NCBI GenBank assembly: GCA_905234715.1 | Contig: CAJOJI010000009.1 | Coordinates: 1 to 39,350 of the forward strand | DNA length: 39,350 bases | Direction: 5' to 3' | Source of the DNA: an uncultured Saccharofermentans sp. | GTDB lineage: Bacteria > Bacillota > Clostridia > Saccharofermentanales > Saccharofermentanaceae | In this document: positions 28,364-38,639 of the stretch, in pieces | Position numbering within the stretch: the first letter of the stretch is position 1 | Layout of the letters: each line of letters starts with the position of its first letter | The notes under the pieces: generated by a model | Database searches by the model: none | What the model was told of the DNA's origin: nothing | What the model saw: the letters and a program-made list of their open reading frames with translations, nothing else | Position numbers and translations under genes: made by a program

Positions 28364-29146
28364 ATGATCGAATATAGAATTGCAACCAGTGATGATATCG
28401 AACTTTTAATGAGCAGCCGTTTGGAAATGCTGCGCGTCGTAAACGATCTTTCTGACGATTACGTTTATTCGGATGAGATCATTCGTGAGAGCCGCGAATA
28501 CTTTCTTCACGGTGACCAGCTGACCGTACTTGCACTGGATGGTGGCAAAGTTATCCTTCATCCTTATCCGAATGAGGCTTTGGAATATGCAGAAGATGCC
28601 GAGCCGATGATGTTCCACTTTGGTACAGATGGAAGTGGGTATGATGCTATTATAATTCCCGATGGTGGATGCAGAAATCAGTTCGCAGAAAGCTCATTTA
28701 AAGAACATGATGTAGAGGGTCACAAACTAAGTAGACTTCAAACGTGGATGAAAGGAATGGATGTGTTCGCATTTGGAATATCAACAGCTCCCAAATCTGT
28801 AAAGAAACTAGCAGAATATTTTGGTTTTGATTATAGCGGTTATGATTATTTAGTATTGCATCAAGCCAATATGAAAATGAACAAAATGATAGCAAAAAAG
28901 CTAAAGTTTGATGAAGAAAGGGTGCCATCTTCAATGTATCGATTTGGTAACACATCTTCTGCATCTATACCATTGACTATAATTACAGAGTTGGGTGAAA
29001 GAGTAAAGAGCCCCACCAAATTATTGTGTTGTGGATTTGGTGTAGGATTATCTTGGGGTACTGTAGCTCTTAACGTAGATAACTTGGTAATATCAGAATT
29101 GGTAAATGTAGATGATAACGAAATAAACGAAAAATATGTCATATAA
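28364..29146 (+). pseudogene. Chimeric ORF: GNAT acetyltransferase start joined to KASIII C-terminal half
   Basis: Residues 1-64 are the start of a GNAT acetyltransferase (MIEYRIATSDDIELLMSS... to DGGKVI, the strand just before the acetyl-CoA site). From about residue 72 (ALEYAEDAEPMMFHFGTDG) the frame is the back half of a ketoacyl-ACP synthase III, with its histidine in LHQAN (H166) and asparagine in FGNTSSAS (N196). The KAS catalytic cysteine and the GNAT P-loop are both absent, so neither activity is expected. The join falls between 28,553 and 28,577, in frame by chance, and coincides with a drop in G+C. The KAS part resembles the complete KASIII at 29891. Overlaps the next SDR gene by 11 bases. 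Confidence 0.85.
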
Positions 29147-29885
29147 TCCATATTCATTAGAGGGGAAAACAATATTGATAACAGGAGCATCTTCTGGGAT
29201 AGGGCAGGCAACAGCCATTGAGTGTTCAAAGCTAGGAGCCAATGTCATAATAATCGGTAGAAATGAAGAGCGCCTAAAGGCTACTATTTCGCAAATGGAA
29301 GGAGAAAGCAATTTCTATCTGAAATGTGATTTCTCTGATCCTTCAAATTTGGATAGTATAATAGATCAATTGCCTAAATTAGATGGGCTAGTGAACAATG
29401 CGGGCGTCGGCCATATGACTCCGATTCCTTTTATTAAAGAAAAGGATCTTGAAGAGATATTTAAAGTTAATACTTTTACACCGATTCTATTATTAAAACT
29501 CCTTTCCAAAAAGAAACTGTTGAAGAAGAATTCTTCAGTTGTTTTTACGAGCTCAGTAGCAGGATTAGGTGCAGCATCAACTGGTAATGGCATATATACG
29601 GCTTCGAAGGGTGCTCTGAGTGCATTTATTAAAGTAGCAGCATTAGAGTTAGCTACTAAGGGAATAAGAGTAAATGCGGTATGTCCGGGAATGACCAAAA
29701 CTCCGTTAATTGAGAACGAATCGGTTCAAGAAGAAGAGTTGCAAAAAGATATGGAACGTTATCCGTTGAAACGATACGCAGATCCTAAAGAAATCGCATG
29801 GGGAATCATATATTTGCTATCTGATGCATCAAGTTTCGTTACTGGTGATAATTTGGTTATCGATGGCGGTCTAAACGTATATTAA
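29136..29885 (+). CDS. Short-chain dehydrogenase/reductase, FabG-like
   Basis: A 249-residue classical SDR. NAD(P)-binding TGASSGIG near residue 17, NNAG at about 87-90, catalytic serine in FTSSVAG and the Y154-x3-K158 pair (YTASK). C-terminal GDNLVIDGG. Likely a ketoacyl or ketose reductase; placed between a KASIII fragment and a full KASIII, a beta-ketoacyl-ACP reductase role fits best. It is the most AT-rich gene here with no Shine-Dalgarno site. Confidence 0.9.
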   Translation: MSYNPYSLEGKTILITGASSGIGQATAIECSKLGANVIIIGRNEERLKATISQMEGESNFYLKCDFSDPSNLDSIIDQLPKLDGLVNNAGVGHMTPIPFIKEKDLEEIFKVNTFTPILLLKLLSKKKLLKKNSSVVFTSSVAGLGAASTGNGIYTASKGALSAFIKVAALELATKGIRVNAVCPGMTKTPLIENESVQEEELQKDMERYPLKRYADPKEIAWGIIYLLSDASSFVTGDNLVIDGGLNVY

Positions 29886-29890
29886 ATAAT

Positions 29891-30943
29891 ATGGCATTTT
29901 TAGAGATAAAACACGTTGCCCTTAGAGGCATGTCTGCCTGTGTACCCCAAAACATAGAAAAGAATATTGACTCCTATCAGAAGTGGGGTGACTATACAAA
30001 AATCAGAAGTCTTATAGGTATAGATCAGCGTCATCTTTTTAATGATGGAAGATGCACCTCTGATTTGTTTTATGGCGCAGCGGAGAAGTTGATTGAAGAG
30101 TTGGGATGGGAGAAAGATGAGATTGATGCAATCGTCTGTGTAACTCAAACCCCCGATTTTATTCAGCCTCCTGTTGCTTGCATCCTTCAAAATCGTTTAG
30201 GCTTAAAAGAAGAATGTTTTGCGACGGATATTCCGCACGGATGTTCTGGCTGGGTGTATGGATTAAGTATACTCAGTTCAATTATGCAAAATGGGTCAAT
30301 CAAGAAGGGACTACTTTTTTCTGGTGATACGGCATCAAAAGTAGCATCTCCTGAAGATAAGACGACGCTTCCTCTGTTTGGTGATGCGGGTACATGTACA
30401 GCCCTTGAATATACGGAAGAAGAATCATCCATCAAATTTGCCCTTTGTACTGATGGCTCTGGAAGTGATAAAATACAGATTCGTGATGGTGGCTATCGAC
30501 ATCCGTTTAATGAACATACCCTTGATATGGTTGACTATGGGGATGGCATTGTGAGAAATAACAATCATATCTTTATGGATGGTATGTCCGTTTTCTCATT
30601 TGCGATTTCGAAAGCGCCCAAACAGATAAAAGATCTGGTGGAAAAATATTCTATCAATCAGGAGGAGATAGATTACTATGTATTGCATCAGGCCAATCTG
30701 TTCATGGATGAAAAAATTCGTAGAAAGATGAAACTTTCCAAAGACAAGGTGCTATACTGTATTGAGGAGTTTGGTAACACCAGTAGTGGTTCCATTCCTC
30801 TGACTTTAGTTTCAAGAGCAAAGGATGATTTGGAGAAAAGACACTTGAAACTCATAGGCAGTGGTTTTGGTGTTGGACTCTCATGGGCTGCAGCCTATTT
30901 TGAGACTGATCATATTGTTTGTCCAGGTGTAATAGAGATTTAA
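29891..30943 (+). CDS. Ketoacyl-ACP synthase III
   Basis: A thiolase-fold enzyme that starts or extends an acyl chain by decarboxylative condensation on a carrier protein. The Cys-His-Asn triad is complete: C118 (HGCSGW), H266 (LHQAN) and N296 (FGNTSSGS). GDAGTCTALEY matches the region at which the preceding chimeric ORF joins its KAS part, showing the two are paralogues. At 350 residues it is slightly longer than FabH. The dedicated ACP at 33886 and AMP ligase at 34135 are likely partners. Starts five bases after the SDR, without a ribosome site. Confidence 0.92.
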   Translation: MAFLEIKHVALRGMSACVPQNIEKNIDSYQKWGDYTKIRSLIGIDQRHLFNDGRCTSDLFYGAAEKLIEELGWEKDEIDAIVCVTQTPDFIQPPVACILQNRLGLKEECFATDIPHGCSGWVYGLSILSSIMQNGSIKKGLLFSGDTASKVASPEDKTTLPLFGDAGTCTALEYTEEESSIKFALCTDGSGSDKIQIRDGGYRHPFNEHTLDMVDYGDGIVRNNNHIFMDGMSVFSFAISKAPKQIKDLVEKYSINQEEIDYYVLHQANLFMDEKIRRKMKLSKDKVLYCIEEFGNTSSGSIPLTLVSRAKDDLEKRHLKLIGSGFGVGLSWAAAYFETDHIVCPGVIEI

Positions 30944-30944
30944 T

Positions 30945-31742
30945 ATGGCAGATCTTAAACAATTAAAACAGGATGTTCTTTGGATGAGAAAGCGGATATT
31001 GGAATTGGCTTTAAAGTCCGGCTCGTCCGGTGCTCACCTTGGAGGCTCCTTATCAATGGTAGAGATTCTGGTAGCTTTATATAGTGTAGCCAACATCTCT
31101 CATGATGATAGCCGTGATAGAGTCATTTTGAGTAAAGGCCATGGTGCATTGGCTCTTTATACCGCATTAGAGTTAAATGGAAAGATGTCGAAAGAATTAG
31201 TTGATACTTTTGAAACTAATGGCACACATCTTTTTGCTCATGCATCAAGAGATGTTGAGCATGGTATTGAATTTTCTGGCGGTAGTCTCGGTCTTGGTAT
31301 ATCCTATGCTGTAGGTGTAGCCATTGCTTGTAAAGAAAAGGGCCTGAATAATCATGTATATGTGATAGTTGGTGATGGCGAATGCAATGAAGGTCTATTT
31401 TGGGAAACTCTAATGACCATCAAACAATTCCAATTGAACAATATGACCATTATTGTTGATAATAATGGATTGCAAGCCGATGGCTTTACCAATGAGATCA
31501 TCGATCTATCTCCCATGACGGACAAACTGCAAGCATTTGGACTAAAAGCTATTGACGTTGCTGGTCACGATATTGAGGCATTGATGAATGTGTTATCATC
31601 AAAGGAAGAAACTCGTCCTGTTGCCATTGTTGCCAATACTATCAAAGGTAAGGGCGTCTCATTCATGGAGAATTCTGCTGCCTGGCATCATGGTGTGCTT
31701 AATCAGAAGAAGTTTGACAAGGCAATGGAAGAACTATCATAG
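30945..31742 (+). CDS. Transketolase-like enzyme, N-terminal (TPP) subunit
   Basis: A 265-residue protein corresponding to the thiamin-pyrophosphate domain of transketolase. The TPP motif runs from G143-D-G to N173-N (GDGECNEGLFWE, then VDNNG). HLGGSLSMVEILVALY and SKGHGALALYTALE are conserved. It pairs with the next gene, the usual split arrangement. Ordinary central transketolases are also split in some bacteria, but the setting among acyl-carrier and SDR genes suggests a dedicated two-carbon transfer or ligation reaction. One base separates it from the KASIII stop. Confidence 0.93.
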   Translation: MADLKQLKQDVLWMRKRILELALKSGSSGAHLGGSLSMVEILVALYSVANISHDDSRDRVILSKGHGALALYTALELNGKMSKELVDTFETNGTHLFAHASRDVEHGIEFSGGSLGLGISYAVGVAIACKEKGLNNHVYVIVGDGECNEGLFWETLMTIKQFQLNNMTIIVDNNGLQADGFTNEIIDLSPMTDKLQAFGLKAIDVAGHDIEALMNVLSSKEETRPVAIVANTIKGKGVSFMENSAAWHHGVLNQKKFDKAMEELS

Positions 31743-31747
31743 GAGTT

Positions 31748-32719
31748 ATGGAAAACAGATTGAAATATAACGCAAAGATGATGTCCATGTTTGGACAGAA
31801 TGGTGTCGTCTTTGGTAGTGCCTTGGAATTCTATCATGACCAATATCAGATTAAAGTGTTGACATCTGATATGGCGTATGGCGCAGGATTGTCGCGCTTT
31901 AAGCAGAAATTTCCCAATGATTTTTATGATGTGGGTATTGCAGAGCAGAATCTGATGGGCATAACAGCCGGATTGGCTTCGGAAGGGTTCAAATGTGTTG
32001 CAACAGCACAAGCCTGTTTTTTAAGTATGCGCAGTTTTGAACCTGTCAGACAATATATGGGTTATATGCAGATTCCGGCAATCTTGATTGGTATTAATAG
32101 TGGTTTTGCCCTGACTTATTTTGGAAATTCCCATTATGCGCTAGAGGATTTGAGTCTTATGCGCACCATTCCGAATATGACCATTCTCTCTCCTGCTGAT
32201 GCCGGAGAGGCTGTCAAGGTATTTGAAGCTGCATTACAAATGAACAGTCCTGTATATATACGTCTTTCCGGAACGACAAATTGTCCTGTAGTATATCCAG
32301 AAGATTTTGAATATGACTATCGCAAGGCACATGTCGTTTATAATCAAGGAAATGATGTCGTACTTTTTGCTACAGGTTCAATGGTCTTTCAAAGCCTGAA
32401 GGCGGCCGAAATGCTTAATAGTGAAGGATTTGGTGTTAAGGTCATAGATATACATTGCCTGAAGCCCATAGATAAAGAAACTATTTTGAAAGAAATAGCC
32501 GGAGCAAAATTGGCTGTTAGTGTAGAAGAACATTTTGTCAATGGTGGACTAGGTAGCGCAGTCGCAGAGGTGATGTCTGCAAAACTTGCAACTTGCCGAC
32601 TGATGCGTTTGGGCGTACAAGATCAATTCTCAGAAGTGGGTGATTATCAGTATCTGTTAGAGCAAAATGGATTAACTCCAGAAAAGATTGTTGCTTCTGT
32701 TAAAGAAAGATTGTCATGA
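31748..32719 (+). CDS. Transketolase-like enzyme, C-terminal (Pyr) subunit
   Basis: A 323-residue partner carrying the pyrimidine-binding domain and C-terminal domain. E66 in VGIAEQNL is the glutamate that activates the TPP ring. YALEDLSLMRTIPNMT is typical. The end of the pyrimidine domain and the transketolase C-terminal fold (VKVIDIHCLKPID, SVEEHFVNGGLGSAV) are present. Overlaps the VOC gene by four bases (ATGA). With the previous gene it should form an alpha2-beta2 enzyme. Confidence 0.93.
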   Translation: MENRLKYNAKMMSMFGQNGVVFGSALEFYHDQYQIKVLTSDMAYGAGLSRFKQKFPNDFYDVGIAEQNLMGITAGLASEGFKCVATAQACFLSMRSFEPVRQYMGYMQIPAILIGINSGFALTYFGNSHYALEDLSLMRTIPNMTILSPADAGEAVKVFEAALQMNSPVYIRLSGTTNCPVVYPEDFEYDYRKAHVVYNQGNDVVLFATGSMVFQSLKAAEMLNSEGFGVKVIDIHCLKPIDKETILKEIAGAKLAVSVEEHFVNGGLGSAVAEVMSAKLATCRLMRLGVQDQFSEVGDYQYLLEQNGLTPEKIVASVKERLS

Positions 32720-33135
32720 AGGCTTATCCATTTATAACCAAGGTTAATCATATTGGTGTTGCCACCAAAAACTATCAGGAAACAGCGGCCTTTTATGAAT
32801 CAATAGGCTATCATGAGATAGTGGGAGGGTATGACCCCAATCAGAATGTATATGGCTATTTCTATGAAGCAGACGGTAAGCCTACCATAGAATTACTAGC
32901 ACCATACGACGAGAAATCTCCTATCAATAAGATACTTGAGAAGAATGGAGTGACACCCTATCATCTGTGCTATGAGATTAACTGTAGCATAGAAGATGCC
33001 ATCAAGGAAATGAAGGGCGACAGATTTATGGTCATCGCCAAACCGACACATTCTGATAATCTAAAGGGACGTGTTTGTTTTTTGTTTCATAAAGATGTAG
33101 GGATTGTAGAGTTACTTGAATATGAGAAGGTTTGA
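32716..33135 (+). CDS. VOC-superfamily protein (glyoxalase/epimerase type)
   Basis: A 139-residue protein with two beta-alpha-beta-beta-beta repeats. Metal ligands expected of methylmalonyl-CoA epimerase and glyoxalase I are visible: H in VNHIGVA (12), E in TIELLAPYD, H in PYHLCYE and E in GIVELLE. The epimerase reading fits better than glyoxalase, because the acyl-thioester enzymes around it could need a stereocentre inverted; substrate unknown. Overlaps the next SDR by 14 bases. Confidence 0.85.
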   Translation: MKAYPFITKVNHIGVATKNYQETAAFYESIGYHEIVGGYDPNQNVYGYFYEADGKPTIELLAPYDEKSPINKILEKNGVTPYHLCYEINCSIEDAIKEMKGDRFMVIAKPTHSDNLKGRVCFLFHKDVGIVELLEYEKV

Positions 33136-33865
33136 AGGAAAAAATGTTGTCATCACTGGCAGCAGTAGAGGCATAGGCTTGGCCATCCTTGAAGAATTTG
33201 CTAAAGAAGGGGCCAATATTGCAGCTTGTAGTAATCATAGAAGCGATTCTGTTATTGAGAACTATAAGAATATAAGCTCCCAATATGGTGTCGATATCTA
33301 TCCTTTCTTTTTCGATATGTCTGATGAAGATGCGGTAATAGAAGGGGCAAAGTCAATTAAGGAAATTGTGCCTCTGGTTGATGTATTGGTCAATAATGCA
33401 GGGATTTCTCACATAGCTCCTTTTATGTTGACTAAATCAGATGATTTACATCGCGTTTTCCAGGTCAACTTTTTCTCACAGATTGTATTTACAAATGGAC
33501 TCTTAGGAGCCTTAAAGAAAGCAAAGGGCGCAGCTATTGTGAATATGACTTCCATTGCAGGCTTAGATGGCGGAATTGGTGTGACTGTTTATGGCTCATC
33601 AAAAGCTGCTGTCGCTTTGACAACAAAGGTGCAGGCACAGGAGTTGGCTGCCTTTAAGATCAGAGTGAATGCGGTGGCTCCTGGGATGGTGGATACTGAT
33701 ATGGCTGTCAAAATGGGAGAGAAGGCTGTAGAGAATACGACTAATGCTACGGCATTAAAAAGATTGGCAAGGGCAGAAGAGGTGGCGCAGTTAGTGACGT
33801 TTTTGGCCTCTGATAATGCTTCATACATAACCGGACAAGTTGTTCGAGTTGATGGTGGAATTTAA
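33122..33865 (+). CDS. Short-chain dehydrogenase/reductase, FabG-like, second copy
   Basis: A 248-residue classical SDR. TGSSRGIG at about 11-18, NNAG near 90, Ser in NMTSIAG and Y157-x3-K161. It shares only the family plan with the SDR at 29136, so two different reduction steps are likely. The start is taken at the ATG at 33122, inside the VOC gene; two codons earlier an alternative start exists. The ACP gene follows after 20 bases. Confidence 0.9.
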   Translation: MRRFEGKNVVITGSSRGIGLAILEEFAKEGANIAACSNHRSDSVIENYKNISSQYGVDIYPFFFDMSDEDAVIEGAKSIKEIVPLVDVLVNNAGISHIAPFMLTKSDDLHRVFQVNFFSQIVFTNGLLGALKKAKGAAIVNMTSIAGLDGGIGVTVYGSSKAAVALTTKVQAQELAAFKIRVNAVAPGMVDTDMAVKMGEKAVENTTNATALKRLARAEEVAQLVTFLASDNASYITGQVVRVDGGI

Positions 33866-33885
33866 TAAATGAAAATTTTTGAAAT

Positions 33886-34116
33886 ATGGAAACATTAGAA
33901 AAAGTAATTGAGATTGTTGCAACCACATGTGAGGTTGACAATAGTGAAGTAACAGGAGACAGTACTGTGGGAGATTTCCCTGCATGGGATTCCATGGGTC
34001 ATCTAAGTATTCTTAGTGCTGTTGAGGAGGCATTTGACATCAGCTTTGAACCAGAAGAAATGATGGAGATCGAAGATGTCAATGACATTGTGAAGGCAGT
34101 GGAGGCTAAGCAGTAA
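33886..34116 (+). CDS. Acyl carrier protein
   Basis: A 76-residue four-helix carrier. S36 in AWDSMGHLSI is the attachment serine for 4'-phosphopantetheine. Acidic helix II and III (EEAFDISFEPEEMMEIED) match ACPs. It is a dedicated carrier rather than the housekeeping one, as it lies between SDR and AMP-ligase genes. The upstream region is AT-rich, with no Shine-Dalgarno sequence, a Bacteroidota trait. Confidence 0.92.
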   Translation: METLEKVIEIVATTCEVDNSEVTGDSTVGDFPAWDSMGHLSILSAVEEAFDISFEPEEMMEIEDVNDIVKAVEAKQ

Positions 34117-34134
34117 TCAAGTAGTTGCTACTGA

Positions 34135-35580
34135 ATGAAATCTATAGAGGAACAGCTATTCGCTATCGTACAGCAGACTCCTGATAAAGTAGCACTTATC
34201 TCAGGTGAAACCGAGGTGGCTTATAGTCTGCTTTGGGATTATTGTCTGCGTGCTGCCTTTAAACTGCAAAACACTTATCATTTGCAGAAGGGAGATCGCG
34301 TGATACTCTCAGCTGCTGGCAATATAGAGTTTGTGTATGTCTATTTTGGCGTGCATCTGGCAGGAGGTATTTGTGTACCGATCGATCCTGATACTAACCA
34401 AACACGCTTTAACCATATTGAGGCATCCACAAAGCCTGTCTGCGTGATGGGTACGTTGCACAATGTTGCGCGTGAGACAATATCCTTCTCCGATGTCATT
34501 GATGGCACGGAGAAAGCTGAATTTATAGCGCCAAAGATGAGCGAGATAGCCGATATCCTCTTTACTACAGGTACGACAGGGGCACCGAAGGGAGTGGCTC
34601 TGTCGTACTTAAATCTTGCAGCTGCAGCTCGGAATATCAATGAGTTTATCGGTAATTCGGCTGATGATGTAGAGTTGTTGGCACTTCCTGTTAGCCATTC
34701 GTTTGGTTTGGGGCGTATGAGATGCGCACTCACCAAAGGCGCAACAGTAGTGATGCTAGGCACTTTTGCCAATGTGAAGAAGTTCTTTAACGAGATGAAA
34801 CGATGTCATGTGACGATGTTTGCCATGGTGCCTGCCAGTTGGGGCTTCATCAAAAAGATGAGTGGCAAATATATTGGCAAGTTTGCTGACCAATTGAAGT
34901 TTATCGAGATTGGTAGTTCGTTTATGCCAAAGGAGGAGAAGGAATTCTTGATGGAACAACTGCCCCATACTCGTATATGTATGCATTATGGATCGACAGA
35001 AGCATCAAGAAGTGCATTTATGGAGTTCCAAGCCTATAAGGATAATTTGCTCTCGGCAGGCAAGGCATCGCCTCATACAGGAATTAAGATTTTTTCTCCA
35101 GAGGGTAAACCATTGCCATTGGGAGAAGAAGGTGAAGTATGCGTAAAAGGCGAGCATGTGACTTGCAGTTATTGGAACGAAACACCAGAGCGCTTTGCCT
35201 CAGATTTCTATGATGGCTATTTCCGTACTGGCGATTGTGCTACGATGGATGCTGATGGCAATATCTATCTAAAGAGTCGTATCAAAGAGATGATTAACGT
35301 GGGTGGGAAGAAGGTTGCCCCCATGGAAGTGGAGGATATACTGAATACGATACCAGGAGTCAAAGAGAGTGCTTGTATTGGTATTCCTGATCCAGGCGTT
35401 GTGCTGGGCGAGGTGGTTAAGGCTTTCGTTGTGGCAGATGAGAGTCTTACGGATGAAGAAATAATGCAGCAGCTTAAACCTCAATTAGAGGTGTATAAGT
35501 TACCTGTTGAGATAGAGAGAATTAGCGAAATACCCAAAACAAGTTCTGGTAAAATCCAAAGATTGATATTAAAGAAGTAA
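34135..35580 (+). CDS. AMP-dependent acid ligase (acyl-CoA/acyl-ACP synthetase type)
   Basis: A 481-residue adenylate-forming enzyme. The phosphate loop FTTGTTGAPKG is at 143-153, the A5-like MHYGSTEAS near 280, the hinge aspartate in YFRTGD, and the C-terminal catalytic lysine is K473 (SSGKIQR). It activates a carboxylic acid with ATP and passes it to a thiol; the ACP 18 bases upstream is the natural acceptor. Shorter than classical acyl-CoA synthetases, like ligases that load carrier proteins. Which acid is used cannot be read. Confidence 0.9.
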   Translation: MKSIEEQLFAIVQQTPDKVALISGETEVAYSLLWDYCLRAAFKLQNTYHLQKGDRVILSAAGNIEFVYVYFGVHLAGGICVPIDPDTNQTRFNHIEASTKPVCVMGTLHNVARETISFSDVIDGTEKAEFIAPKMSEIADILFTTGTTGAPKGVALSYLNLAAAARNINEFIGNSADDVELLALPVSHSFGLGRMRCALTKGATVVMLGTFANVKKFFNEMKRCHVTMFAMVPASWGFIKKMSGKYIGKFADQLKFIEIGSSFMPKEEKEFLMEQLPHTRICMHYGSTEASRSAFMEFQAYKDNLLSAGKASPHTGIKIFSPEGKPLPLGEEGEVCVKGEHVTCSYWNETPERFASDFYDGYFRTGDCATMDADGNIYLKSRIKEMINVGGKKVAPMEVEDILNTIPGVKESACIGIPDPGVVLGEVVKAFVVADESLTDEEIMQQLKPQLEVYKLPVEIERISEIPKTSSGKIQRLILKK

Positions 35581-35581
35581 A

Positions 35582-38053
35582 ATGAGCGAACAGTTTAAGA
35601 CTGATGATTTGTTGGCATTATCAGCCTACGATGGTAGTACTGAGAGCGATCAATTATTTATGGATGCTCTGCAAGAAGAGTTGATCTTCCATTATGAGCA
35701 TAATGATATGTATCGCCAGTTTTGCCAGCGAAAAGGTTTCGATCCTCATCAAGAAATAAAGAATTTGGAGGATATACCACCAGTCGCAGTGAGTGTGTTT
35801 AAGGATTTGGGATTCAAATTGGGCAGTGTACCCAAAGAAGAATTGTCATTGACTTTGCAATCTTCTGCGACCAGTGGTGTTCCTAGTACGGTGGTTCTTG
35901 ATAAGATTACCAGCAAGCGTCAGGCAAAGGCGATGGTGAAGGTAATCAGCGCCTTTATCGGCAATGAGCGCAAGCCATTCCTGATCATGGATATTGATCC
36001 ACGCTCTGCAGACAGACGATTGCTGGGCGCCAGATTTGCTGCTGTCACAGGTTATCTAAAGTTTGCAAGCAAGACGGGCTTTTTCTTGAAAGCTAAGGAT
36101 GGAATCAGCTACTTTGATATTGAAGGTATCAAACAGTTCGTGAGTGAATTGCCTCAGGATCAACCTGTGGTTGTGTTTGGCTTTACCTATATCCTTTATC
36201 AGAATGTGCTGAAGACTATCCAGAAGACTGGTGAGAAGATTTTGTTGCCAAAAGGCTCAAAGATTATCCACATTGGAGGCTGGAAGAAGTTGGAAAGTGA
36301 AAAGGTTGAGAAGAGCCTGTTTAACCAACAACTTTCTGAGGCGTTTGGAATCGAACCTGTAGATGTGATTGATATCTATGGTTTTACCGAGCAGATGGGT
36401 ATTAATTATCCGGATTGCGTTTGTGGATGCAAGCATGAGTCAAGTTATGTTCGTGTGATAGTTCGCGACCCTGTGTCCCGTGAAGTATTACCTGATGGTA
36501 AGGAGGGTATGCTAGAATTCATTACGCCAATTCCTCATAGCTATCCTGGCAATGTGGTATTGACGGATGATATTGGTGTGATTGAACCTGAGTCATCTCC
36601 ATGTGGTAGGTCAGGTAAACGATTCCGCATTGTAGGTCGAATGAAAAAGGCCGAGGTGCGTGGATGCGGAGATATTTTGTCGGCGAAACTAACCTTTAAT
36701 GCCAAGAAGAATACTGAAGAGGTTGAGGATAATCAGCTTGACATTCAGTATTACAAAGACGAGATTCCTGAAGGTGAAGGTGCTGCGCAACTGAAGCAAA
36801 TCATTGATGGGCTGAACGTTCAGGATGAATGGCTTCGCGAACAACCTATCGAGGCTATTATTGGCTTAATTGGTCAGGCAGCAAAAACTTGGTTGGCTGA
36901 TCCTAAGTTCAGATTCCTGAAGGATAAGGGGCTGTTGTTTTTGAGTCAGTGGTGTGATGAGCGTCATTTACGTCAAGTGGCCATAGACGGGCTTCGTGGT
37001 AATCTAAAATATGCAGATACATTCCTACCTTGTCTGGATAGCGATAAGCATCTGATGAAAGCCAACGCAAGGGGATTGTGTTGTCACTGGATGGCAGGCA
37101 ATGTGCAGATTCTTGGTATGTTTGCTGTGGTTCAGTGTATGCTGACGAAGAACACGAACCTGATAAAGGTTGCAGCCAAGGATGGTGGCGTTTTTGCCTC
37201 TTTGATGTCGGCATTTGAGGGCTTGGAATACACTACAGCAGATGGTTATACGATCAAAGGTGATGACCTGGCTAAGACGGTAGGCGTTGTTTATTTCTCA
37301 CGCCATGCTGTCAAACTTGGTGAGCAGATGTCAAAGGCCGCCAAGGTGCGTATTGCATGGGGAGGAAAAGAGGCCGTAGAGACAGTTGCAGGTTATCCTT
37401 CGACGATTGATTGTGAGACGGTTATTTTCGGACCGAAACTCTCATACGCTGTGATCGCCAAGGAGTCACTGGCTTCTGAACAGGATGCCAAGAAACTGGC
37501 TAGAAGAGTGTCTGTGGATGTGTCCGTATTTGATCAGGCAGGATGTGCTTCACCTCATAATCTCTATATTGAGAAAGGTGGAGAAGTATCACCGGAGCGA
37601 TTCTGTGAGATTCTTGCAGAGGCATTCCCCAAGACAGAATTGCAGATACCCAAGCCAACGGTTTCGCCTGAACAGATTAGTGCGATTCATTCTATCCGTG
37701 GTGTCTATGACTTCAAAGGAAAGGTGTGGGGCAGTGAGAACATGAGCTGGAGTATTCTGCTATCAGGAGATACAGATTGTGAGCTATGCAAACCAGTCTA
37801 TAGTCGGGCATTGATGGTTCATGAGGTGGAACATATCAATGACGTACTTGACAATATCGAGGATTATATCCAGACCATCGGAATCGAGGCACCTCTTAAC
37901 AAAGCTATAGACTTTGCGAATAAAGCAACGGCTAAGGGAGTGGCAAGATGCCCTCAGATAGGTAGAATGCTTAATTTTGAGATGCCCTGGGATGGGGTGT
38001 TCCTGATTGATAGATTGGTGAGGTGGAATACATTGTTCGGGCCGATGTGTTGA
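35582..38053 (+). CDS. LuxE-LuxC fusion: acyl-protein synthetase plus acyl reductase
   Basis: An 823-residue fusion. Residues about 1-370 match LuxE-type acyl-protein synthetases (adenylate fold): the loop SATSGVPSTVV near 95 and YGFTEQMGINYP near 275. From about 390 the sequence is LuxC-type fatty-acyl reductase: WMAGNVQILGMF, a nucleotide-binding region with KVAAKDGG, and the catalytic cysteine C655 in DQAGCASPH. LuxE and LuxC work together to reduce an activated acid to an aldehyde with NADPH; fusing them would channel the acyl group. In Vibrio the two are separate genes with LuxD. One base separates it from the ligase gene. The LuxE cysteine that carries the acyl group in Vibrio is not obvious here. 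Confidence 0.88.
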   Translation: MSEQFKTDDLLALSAYDGSTESDQLFMDALQEELIFHYEHNDMYRQFCQRKGFDPHQEIKNLEDIPPVAVSVFKDLGFKLGSVPKEELSLTLQSSATSGVPSTVVLDKITSKRQAKAMVKVISAFIGNERKPFLIMDIDPRSADRRLLGARFAAVTGYLKFASKTGFFLKAKDGISYFDIEGIKQFVSELPQDQPVVVFGFTYILYQNVLKTIQKTGEKILLPKGSKIIHIGGWKKLESEKVEKSLFNQQLSEAFGIEPVDVIDIYGFTEQMGINYPDCVCGCKHESSYVRVIVRDPVSREVLPDGKEGMLEFITPIPHSYPGNVVLTDDIGVIEPESSPCGRSGKRFRIVGRMKKAEVRGCGDILSAKLTFNAKKNTEEVEDNQLDIQYYKDEIPEGEGAAQLKQIIDGLNVQDEWLREQPIEAIIGLIGQAAKTWLADPKFRFLKDKGLLFLSQWCDERHLRQVAIDGLRGNLKYADTFLPCLDSDKHLMKANARGLCCHWMAGNVQILGMFAVVQCMLTKNTNLIKVAAKDGGVFASLMSAFEGLEYTTADGYTIKGDDLAKTVGVVYFSRHAVKLGEQMSKAAKVRIAWGGKEAVETVAGYPSTIDCETVIFGPKLSYAVIAKESLASEQDAKKLARRVSVDVSVFDQAGCASPHNLYIEKGGEVSPERFCEILAEAFPKTELQIPKPTVSPEQISAIHSIRGVYDFKGKVWGSENMSWSILLSGDTDCELCKPVYSRALMVHEVEHINDVLDNIEDYIQTIGIEAPLNKAIDFANKATAKGVARCPQIGRMLNFEMPWDGVFLIDRLVRWNTLFGPMC

Positions 38054-38069: not shown

Positions 38070-38639
38070 ATGTATAAGCATTTTTTTAAACGTTTCTTCG
38101 ACTTTTGGATTTCTCTTATTAGCCTTATTTGTATCAGCCCAGTCTTGTTGATGGTGACGGTATGGTTGCATTTTGCAAATAAGGGTGTTGGCGCTTTTTT
38201 CTATCAAGAAAGGCCTGGGAAGGATGGGAAGATATTTAAGGTGATTAAGTATAAGACCATGACGGATGAACGGGATGCAGAAGGAAATCTGCTCCCTGAT
38301 GAGGCTCGTTTGACGAAAGTGGGTAAGTTCGTCAGATCAACTTCTATAGATGAATTACCGCAACTGATTAATGTCTTGAAGGGGGACATGGCACTGATAG
38401 GGCCAAGGCCTTTGCTGCCTCAGTAAGTTCGCCCGGGCATCTCAGGATGGGCGCAGTGTCATGGGCGTAATGGCATCAGTTGGACGGAGAAATTCAAATT
38501 GGATGTCTGGTATGTGGATCATGTGAGCCTGATGACGGATCTGAAGGTTATCTGGATTACGATAATGAAGGTGCTGAAGCGGGACGGTATCTCGCAGGAG
38601 GGTAATGCCACGATGGAGGCATTTAATGGGCATAACTAA
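38070..38639 (+). pseudogene. Bacterial sugar transferase (PglC/WbaP-type), broken by a stop
   Basis: A polyprenyl-phosphate sugar-1-phosphate transferase that starts glycan assembly. The first 118 codons give the membrane hairpin (WISLISLICISPVLLMVTVW) and the catalytic core up to IDELPQLINVLKGDMALIGP and RPLLPQ. A TAA stop follows at 38424-38426, and the same frame continues with [16 protein letters not shown]... to a natural stop at 38637. The missing piece is about 13 residues (family YLPLY...RRHE), so a deletion has joined TA and A to make TAA in frame. The truncated form lacks the C-terminal part and is probably inactive. The frame is otherwise clean. Confidence 0.85.

Follow-up and report, generated by a model that had tools for sequence, protein, structure and literature searches.

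What does a two-chain transketolase (TK) do among the acyl-carrier genes that precede a LuxE-LuxC fusion? The question is raised by contig CAJOJI010000009.1, 39,350 nucleotides assigned to an uncultured Saccharofermentans sp. (this whole stretch is called the window below), on which the N-terminal and C-terminal TK chains (TKN and TKC) lie with genes for KASIII, two short-chain dehydrogenases/reductases (SDR1 and SDR2), a VOC protein, an acyl carrier protein (ACP) and an AMP-forming acyl ligase. The original prediction had described one tight, single-strand set in which the LuxC aldehyde could serve as TK acceptor. Pfam matches and open reading frames bear out every member of that set; an extra, truncated KASIII (~28575-29146) precedes the start given there, 29136. 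The reading that we favor, and to which we give roughly even chances, is that the cassette is a TK-bearing relative of the Vibrio cholerae O1 tetronate genes, in which a small diacid would be converted to an aldehyde, lengthened by two carbons by the TK and delivered as a polyhydroxyacyl group to an amino sugar within a cell-surface glycan.

The arrangement recurs. A scan based on the fusion returned 59 loci, many of them metagenome contigs with cut ends, and a LuxEC gene was called in 57. A TK pair lies within the six plus-strand genes upstream in 16 of these 57 loci (17 when a contig-edge fragment in L014 is included). Two loci, L007 and L023, have the gene order of the window throughout (KASIII, SDR, KASIII, TKN, TKC, VOC, SDR, ACP, ligase, LuxE-LuxC), preceded by one more small ACP-like gene, which in L007 matches Pfam weakly. 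Since both keep the same order, the grouping is more than chance. A shorter version, found in L015-L017, consists of TKN, TKC, ACP, ligase and LuxE-LuxC, with no SDR or KASIII among the six upstream genes.

The position directly before LuxE-LuxC is occupied by an iron-containing alcohol dehydrogenase (Fe-ADH; family identity read on L034) in 26 of the 57 loci. TK and Fe-ADH are never both found at these positions (0/57), and 15 loci, several of which end at contig edges, have neither. When only loci with at least 4 kb upstream are counted (n = 48), 25 have Fe-ADH, 14 have TK and 9 have neither. In L009 the TK is accompanied by an Fe-ADH that lies farther upstream, within a group of three genes; the families of this group recur in L042. 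Because TK and Fe-ADH replace each other near LuxE-LuxC, the proposal that the LuxC aldehyde is the TK acceptor gains support.

A lack of such co-occurrence in related loci would, according to the original prediction, have weakened its case; instead, TK and LuxEC recur together in two phyla, with the cassette TK clade spread over Bacteroidales and Treponemataceae. Matches to the fusion at E ≤ 1e-20 were obtained in 11 of the 274 genomes of the Treponema family; two of the 11 regions, L127 and L128, hold a TK clustered with LuxE and LuxC encoded as separate genes. Regions L121-L125 of that family have LuxE with a metallo-beta-lactamase-fold-like neighbor, L121 also having LuxC, FabA-like and CoA-transferase genes; these represent a different use of LuxE/LuxC. 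Five near-whole-chromosome genomes (G179, G182-G185) carry LuxE beside other genes, and their TKs are only full-length or DXS-sized frames. The fusion also matched 78 plasmid records, all at less than 60% identity. A metallo-beta-lactamase-fold gene (family read on L006) follows LuxE-LuxC directly or nearly directly in L001, L006, L008-L011 and L025. No publication joining LuxE/LuxC and transketolase in one pathway was found in a limited search of an open-licence library, in which one semiochemical review (PMC6955855) contains all three enzyme terms.

The link is also seen from the TK side. When the window TKC was searched against 393 genomes of the order of G046, the genome at the center of this search, seven hits in six genomes were obtained at E ≤ 4.4e-73, the next following at 4.9e-60. 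LuxE and LuxC adjoin five of these seven TKCs vs none of the 16 next-best (Fisher p = 6e-4); the count without G046 is four of six. Three of the five positives (L011, L012 and L027, the last being the same locus as L160) were already known from the LuxE side, and contig ends leave some of the control stretches under 20 kb. In a tree of 45 TKC rows, all 23 cassette-type sequences form one clade (support 100/98). LuxE/LuxC adjoin 21 of these 23 TKCs, a set gathered mostly via LuxE.

The active sites of the cassette enzymes keep the cofactor site of a transketolase and have lost much of its substrate pocket (E. coli TK numbering; counts without L149 and L152, which by alignment are not TKs). The thiamine diphosphate-binding and catalytic residues H26, H66, H100, D155, N185 and H261 (His, the GDG motif and Asn) are kept in 20/20 cassette-type TKNs, comprising 19 cassette TKNs and L153, as are the catalytic Glu (E411) and H473 in 19/19 cassette TKCs. 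In the same 19 TKCs, the acceptor residue D469 is always F, M or L; of the phosphate-binding residues, H461 and R520 are always lost, and R358 and S385 are lost in 18. Eight full-length TKs from related or cassette genomes all have R358, H461, D469, H473 and R520, and six of the eight have S385. In the wider clade set (n = 23), M, F or L again takes the place of D469, with a single S; among the 120 listed relatives of the window TKC (6,888 were over threshold) F stands there in all 120, with R358 and S385 lost in all. The residue that pairs with D469 in a salt bridge, R91, is acidic (E or D) in 21/22 cassette TKNs and R or K in 14/14 other split TKs; this housekeeping comparison set leaves out four split TKs that fall outside the clade, L155, L164, L167 and L177. 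As D469 is also changed to L in L155, L164 and L167, this change alone does not define the clade.

Several of these positions have been altered by engineers. Mutations at R358, S385, D469 and R520 raised the performance of E. coli TK with aromatic aldehydes (PMC7661550), and the combination S385Y/D469T/R520Q moved it from phosphorylated to non-phosphorylated acceptors, both aliphatic and aromatic (PMC5073344). From the residues we infer that the cassette acceptor would be non-phosphorylated and lack the usual alpha-hydroxyl, like a LuxC aldehyde with a neighboring methylene, and that the donor would also be non-phosphorylated. Since several positive charges of the pocket are lost, the alignments further suggest an acceptor whose carboxylate is masked, for example as an ACP thioester.

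Could the pair nonetheless be an ordinary pentose-phosphate TK that lies beside acyl genes by chance? The closest relative of known structure, 6yaj/6yak, is indeed a true split transketolase. However, we consider this explanation highly improbable, as the phosphate-binding residues are lost clade-wide, the linkage to LuxE/LuxC is recurrent, and other TKs are present. The source genome (G000) has another Transketolase_N gene on C112, and six of the nine other TK-cassette genomes examined have another TK, full-length in G044, G045, G048 and G093 and split in G043 and G047; in the remaining three (G041, G046 and G051) a second TK was not established. The original prediction would have been weakened had the pair been the genome's sole housekeeping copy, and it is not. 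A housekeeping role was rejected on these other TKs and on the missing phosphate-binding residues.

The fusion itself bears on the size of the acyl group. Cys362 of the LuxE part and Cys655 of the LuxC part align with cysteines of 7xc6, in which both domains are present. In luminous bacteria, LuxE/LuxC act on long-chain acyl groups, and the authors of two papers on flagellin-glycosylation islands proposed a liposugar (PMC7874193; PMC4875605). By analogy, the cassette could make a long-chain fatty aldehyde and from it a lipid-like ketol, such as a liposugar, a sphingoid-like base or a signal. We regard this as unlikely, because the fusion halves stay far under the NCBIfam long-chain equivalog cut-offs (102.1 vs 750 bits and 101.2 vs 550 bits) and the similarly built V. 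cholerae set is associated with a C4 hydroxy acid.

In the pathway that we favor, the ligase would load a small diacid, likely malate, onto ACP; LuxE would activate the distal carboxyl and LuxC would reduce it to an aldehyde, perhaps still tethered to the carrier. The split TK, using an unphosphorylated donor such as hydroxypyruvate, would then add a glycolaldehyde unit to the aldehyde, in the malate case giving a C6 2,4,6-trihydroxy-5-oxohexanoyl chain. SDR2 would reduce the ketone made by the TK, the VOC protein may set a stereocenter next to a carbonyl, and the acyl group would likely leave the carrier protein for an amino sugar of the surface glycan. A 3-hydroxyacyl chain would be built or lengthened by KASIII and SDR1, which are missing from L015-L017, where the TK, ACP, ligase and LuxE-LuxC are present. 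The function of the VOC, KASIII and SDR genes is assigned at general family level.

The malate reading is helped by the lactate/malate-dehydrogenase-family genes found in 6 of the 57 loci. These have, by eye, an Arg in what we take to be the specificity motif. On our reading malate is the likely precursor: its semialdehyde, once reduced by an alcohol dehydrogenase, becomes 2,4-dihydroxybutanoate, whose acyl form is the product expected of an O1-type tetronate cassette. More tentatively, we propose that this TK clade may have left sugar-phosphate metabolism and may join a two-carbon ketol unit to an ACP-tethered LuxE-LuxC semialdehyde, giving a C6 polyhydroxyacyl group (3-deoxyhexonoyl type) with which Bacteroidales and treponemes would decorate amino-sugar glycans. 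Fe-ADH and TK would then be exchangeable last-step modules, the choice between them determining how long the acyl group is. The flagellin glycan of Treponema denticola reportedly contains a 2-methoxy-4,5,6-trihydroxyhexanoyl group, an O-methylated relative of the proposed C6 chain. It serves as a chemical precedent, but a link to the cassette is not supported, given the gene content of G179 and G182-G185, which may be close to T. denticola.

Several observations weigh against the favored pathway. The lactate/malate-dehydrogenase-family gene is absent from all 26 Fe-ADH loci and present in just 2 of the 16 with TK. The residue losses have exceptions: L128 keeps R358 and S385, L161 has Ser at D469, and 1 of the 120 listed relatives has R in the R520 column. 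Finally, two clade TKs, L156 and L163, are without LuxE/LuxC within the ~20 kb read. Because of these two, the TK-LuxE/LuxC link is strong but not obligatory, and the part of the original prediction that made the LuxC aldehyde the TK acceptor gains support with this reservation: co-occurrence, the alternation of TK with Fe-ADH and the loss of phosphate-binding and acceptor residues speak for it.

The two exceptional loci have contents of their own. L156 (G045:C4, 5828-10361) has the clade TK pair with SDR, FkbH, ACP, MaoC and MBOAT genes, a combination of TK with glyceryl-carrier-type genes. L163 (G664:C7, 7881-15981) has the clade TK, two AMP-ligases, two ACPs, GNAT and MBOAT genes in an FdtA/DegT-like sugar locus.

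An alternative that we think possible, though we doubt it, is that the TK makes no use of the LuxC aldehyde and that the acceptor of its two-carbon unit is a keto sugar or a different carrier-bound substrate, the aldehyde being reduced by an SDR as in TK-less loci. It would account for clade TKs that have ACPs but no LuxE/LuxC (L156 and L163), and LuxEC loci with an SDR only do exist (7 of the 48 with at least 4 kb upstream). It fits less well with the adjoining LuxE/LuxC of most clade TKCs, even allowing for how that set was gathered, and with the finding that TK and Fe-ADH, both able to consume the aldehyde, never share this position.

If the favored pathway is right as to acceptor, bacteria already use the change that engineers reached stepwise in E. 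coli TK, and the clade would be a source of natural transketolases for non-phosphorylated aldehydes. A TK would serve to vary the acyl group of surface sugars, structures read by phages and immune systems. Genes could be translated into predicted glycan acyl groups by a modular rule (LuxE-LuxC with Fe-ADH, SDR or TK), and for LuxE/LuxC glycosylation islands the liposugar idea would turn into a testable claim about small hydroxy acids.

The loci of relatives supply a glycan setting, with NeuB, cytidylyltransferase, DegT, sugar-transferase, flippase-type, GNAT and hexapeptide acyltransferase genes. NeuB occurs in three of the 16 TK loci, namely L003, L007 and L023. A protein of ~350 amino acids without a Pfam match (L034:12499-13554; eight loci) recurs in LuxEC loci with nonulosonate genes, in several of which a polysaccharide-deacetylase-family gene adjoins it; it is possibly an acyl-exchanging partner.

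The genes of the window are collected in the table below. Neighbors in the cassette are spaced by -20 to +20 nucleotides, with all frames open on the plus strand, and the ligase and the fusion are 1 nucleotide apart. The sugar-transferase gene directly 3′ of LuxE-LuxC has a stop inside and has apparently lost a short stretch, and the contig ends after it.

Features at the cassette end of the window, with the basis of each assignment
Feature	Position	Strand	Basis
Start of a GNAT-like gene, ends at the contig join	28364..28574	+	Translation by eye; KASIII relatives leave this part unmatched
First KASIII, C-terminal part, without N-terminus	28575..29146	+	Pfam ACP_syn_III_C 3.1e-21
SDR1, 3-oxoacyl-ACP reductase type	29136..29885	+	Pfam
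KASIII, second copy	29891..30943	+	Pfam; Cys-His-Asn motifs by eye
TKN, transketolase N-terminal chain (Transketolase_N)	30945..31742	+	Pfam 2.1e-27; best PDB relative 6yak
TKC, transketolase C-terminal chain (Transket_pyr and Transketolase_C), substrate site rebuilt	31748..32719	+	Pfam; best PDB relative 6yaj
VOC protein (Glyoxalase_4), methylmalonyl-CoA-epimerase/glyoxalase-I type	32716..33135	+	Pfam; PDB 2qh0, 3hdp, 3rmu
SDR2, 3-oxoacyl-ACP reductase type	33116..33865	+	Pfam, NCBIfam
ACP	33886..34116	+	Pfam PP-binding 6.2e-07
AMP-forming acyl ligase (AMP-binding and AMP-binding_C)	34135..35580	+	Pfam 3e-57
LuxE-LuxC fusion (acyl-protein synthetase and acyl reductase), one frame of 823 amino acids	35582..38053	+	Pfam LuxE 2.7e-110, LuxC 2.3e-73
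Sugar-transferase gene, stop-interrupted	38070..38426	+	Match to sugar transferases of relatives, L006 among them; translation

The first KASIII marks a discontinuity. At ~28,575, a reading frame that begins like a GNAT gene runs on without a frame change into the end of a KASIII; the closest relatives of the resulting fused protein are KASIIIs, mostly of ~355 amino acids, that match only its last three-quarters or so, and identity to these whole relatives is 94% over 28575..29146. GC content and GC skew, read in 2-kb steps, shift around this point. The tetranucleotide correlation of the right part with the other contigs of the genome is 0.42, compared with 0.61-0.81 for six 10.8-kb pieces of other contigs and 0.60-0.76 for five slices of the left part; it is 0.32-0.76 with 15 Bacteroidales loci and 0.37-0.61 with nine Clostridia loci. 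The profile thus falls outside the range of the genome and comes closer to that of some Bacteroidales loci. Shine-Dalgarno-like motifs precede 12 of 22 left genes (selected by hand from the list of reading frames) vs 1 of 10 right genes. Genomes of the same genus have only distant LuxE (best E 9.9e-58 vs 2.5e-111), and Bacteroidales have full-length LuxE-LuxC fusions of up to 80% identity to that of the window.

Very probably, then, the contig is chimeric at ~28,575, a mis-joined metagenome contig being the simplest reading; alternatively, the right part may have been transferred very recently. In either case the cassette is of Bacteroidales type and is best judged by its Bacteroidales relatives. 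Given this very probable chimera, nothing about the cassette can be read from the polysaccharide genes to the left of the join. The earlier placement of the cassette within a polysaccharide locus therefore holds only in part: in this window it is partly a contig artefact, the interrupted sugar transferase being the sole gene 3′ of the cassette. Near the left end, transposase-like genes (IS66-type by eye; no search was made) lie at 74-1741 and 2308-2703, before polysaccharide-type kinase genes.

Although the original prediction knew of no described pathway with this set, that statement was too wide, as the core is described in the V. cholerae O1 tetronate genes and in flagellin islands of Aeromonas and Enterobacteriaceae. 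In the O1 antigen, perosamine bears 3-deoxy-L-glycero-tetronate on its amino group (PMC3441752; PMC12208996), and VC0250 is annotated as an iron-containing alcohol dehydrogenase, VC0251 as the acyl protein synthase/acyl-CoA reductase RfbN and VC0252 as an acetyltransferase (PMC9201469). By annotation, the set rfbKLMNO/wbeKLMNO (VC0248-VC0252) has carrier protein, ligase (RfbL) and RfbN in the order of the window and, in VC0250, the Fe-ADH of 26 of our 57 loci; the Fe-ADH form of the cassette thus matches it in gene composition and order. In contrast, the window has a split TK and no Fe-ADH between ligase and fusion, has extra KASIII, SDR and VOC genes, and has no acyltransferase directly after the fusion, where the interrupted sugar transferase and then the contig end follow. 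In the Vibrio genus group, 4 of 196 genomes matched, all at at least 76% to the query, and the O1 locus was identified in none; V. cholerae proteins are not among the 120 listed hits.

The Aeromonas group II and enterobacterial islands share ACP, SDR (3-oxoacyl-ACP reductase), AMP-ligase, luxE and luxC in glycan loci. They differ in that luxE and luxC are listed as separate genes and that the word transketolase does not occur in the Aeromonas paper. In those islands the core adjoins pseudaminic-acid and flagellar genes; in the window the flanks of the core are lost at the contig join and the contig end. The LuxE-LuxC reductase of luminous bacteria (7xc6) resembles the window protein in both domains and both active-site cysteines, whereas the window version is fused and far under the long-chain cut-offs. 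Among transketolases, the split enzyme of Carboxydothermus hydrogenoformans (6yaj and 6yak), the best PDB match for both chains, shares the two-chain build and the catalytic and cofactor residues; it keeps S385, H461, D469 and R520, which the cassette TKs have lost. The evolved E. coli variant S385Y/D469T/R520Q is changed at the same three positions as the cassette TKs, but it was made in the laboratory, and the natural clade has gone further, having also lost R358 (18/19) and H461 and having a mostly acidic residue at R91.

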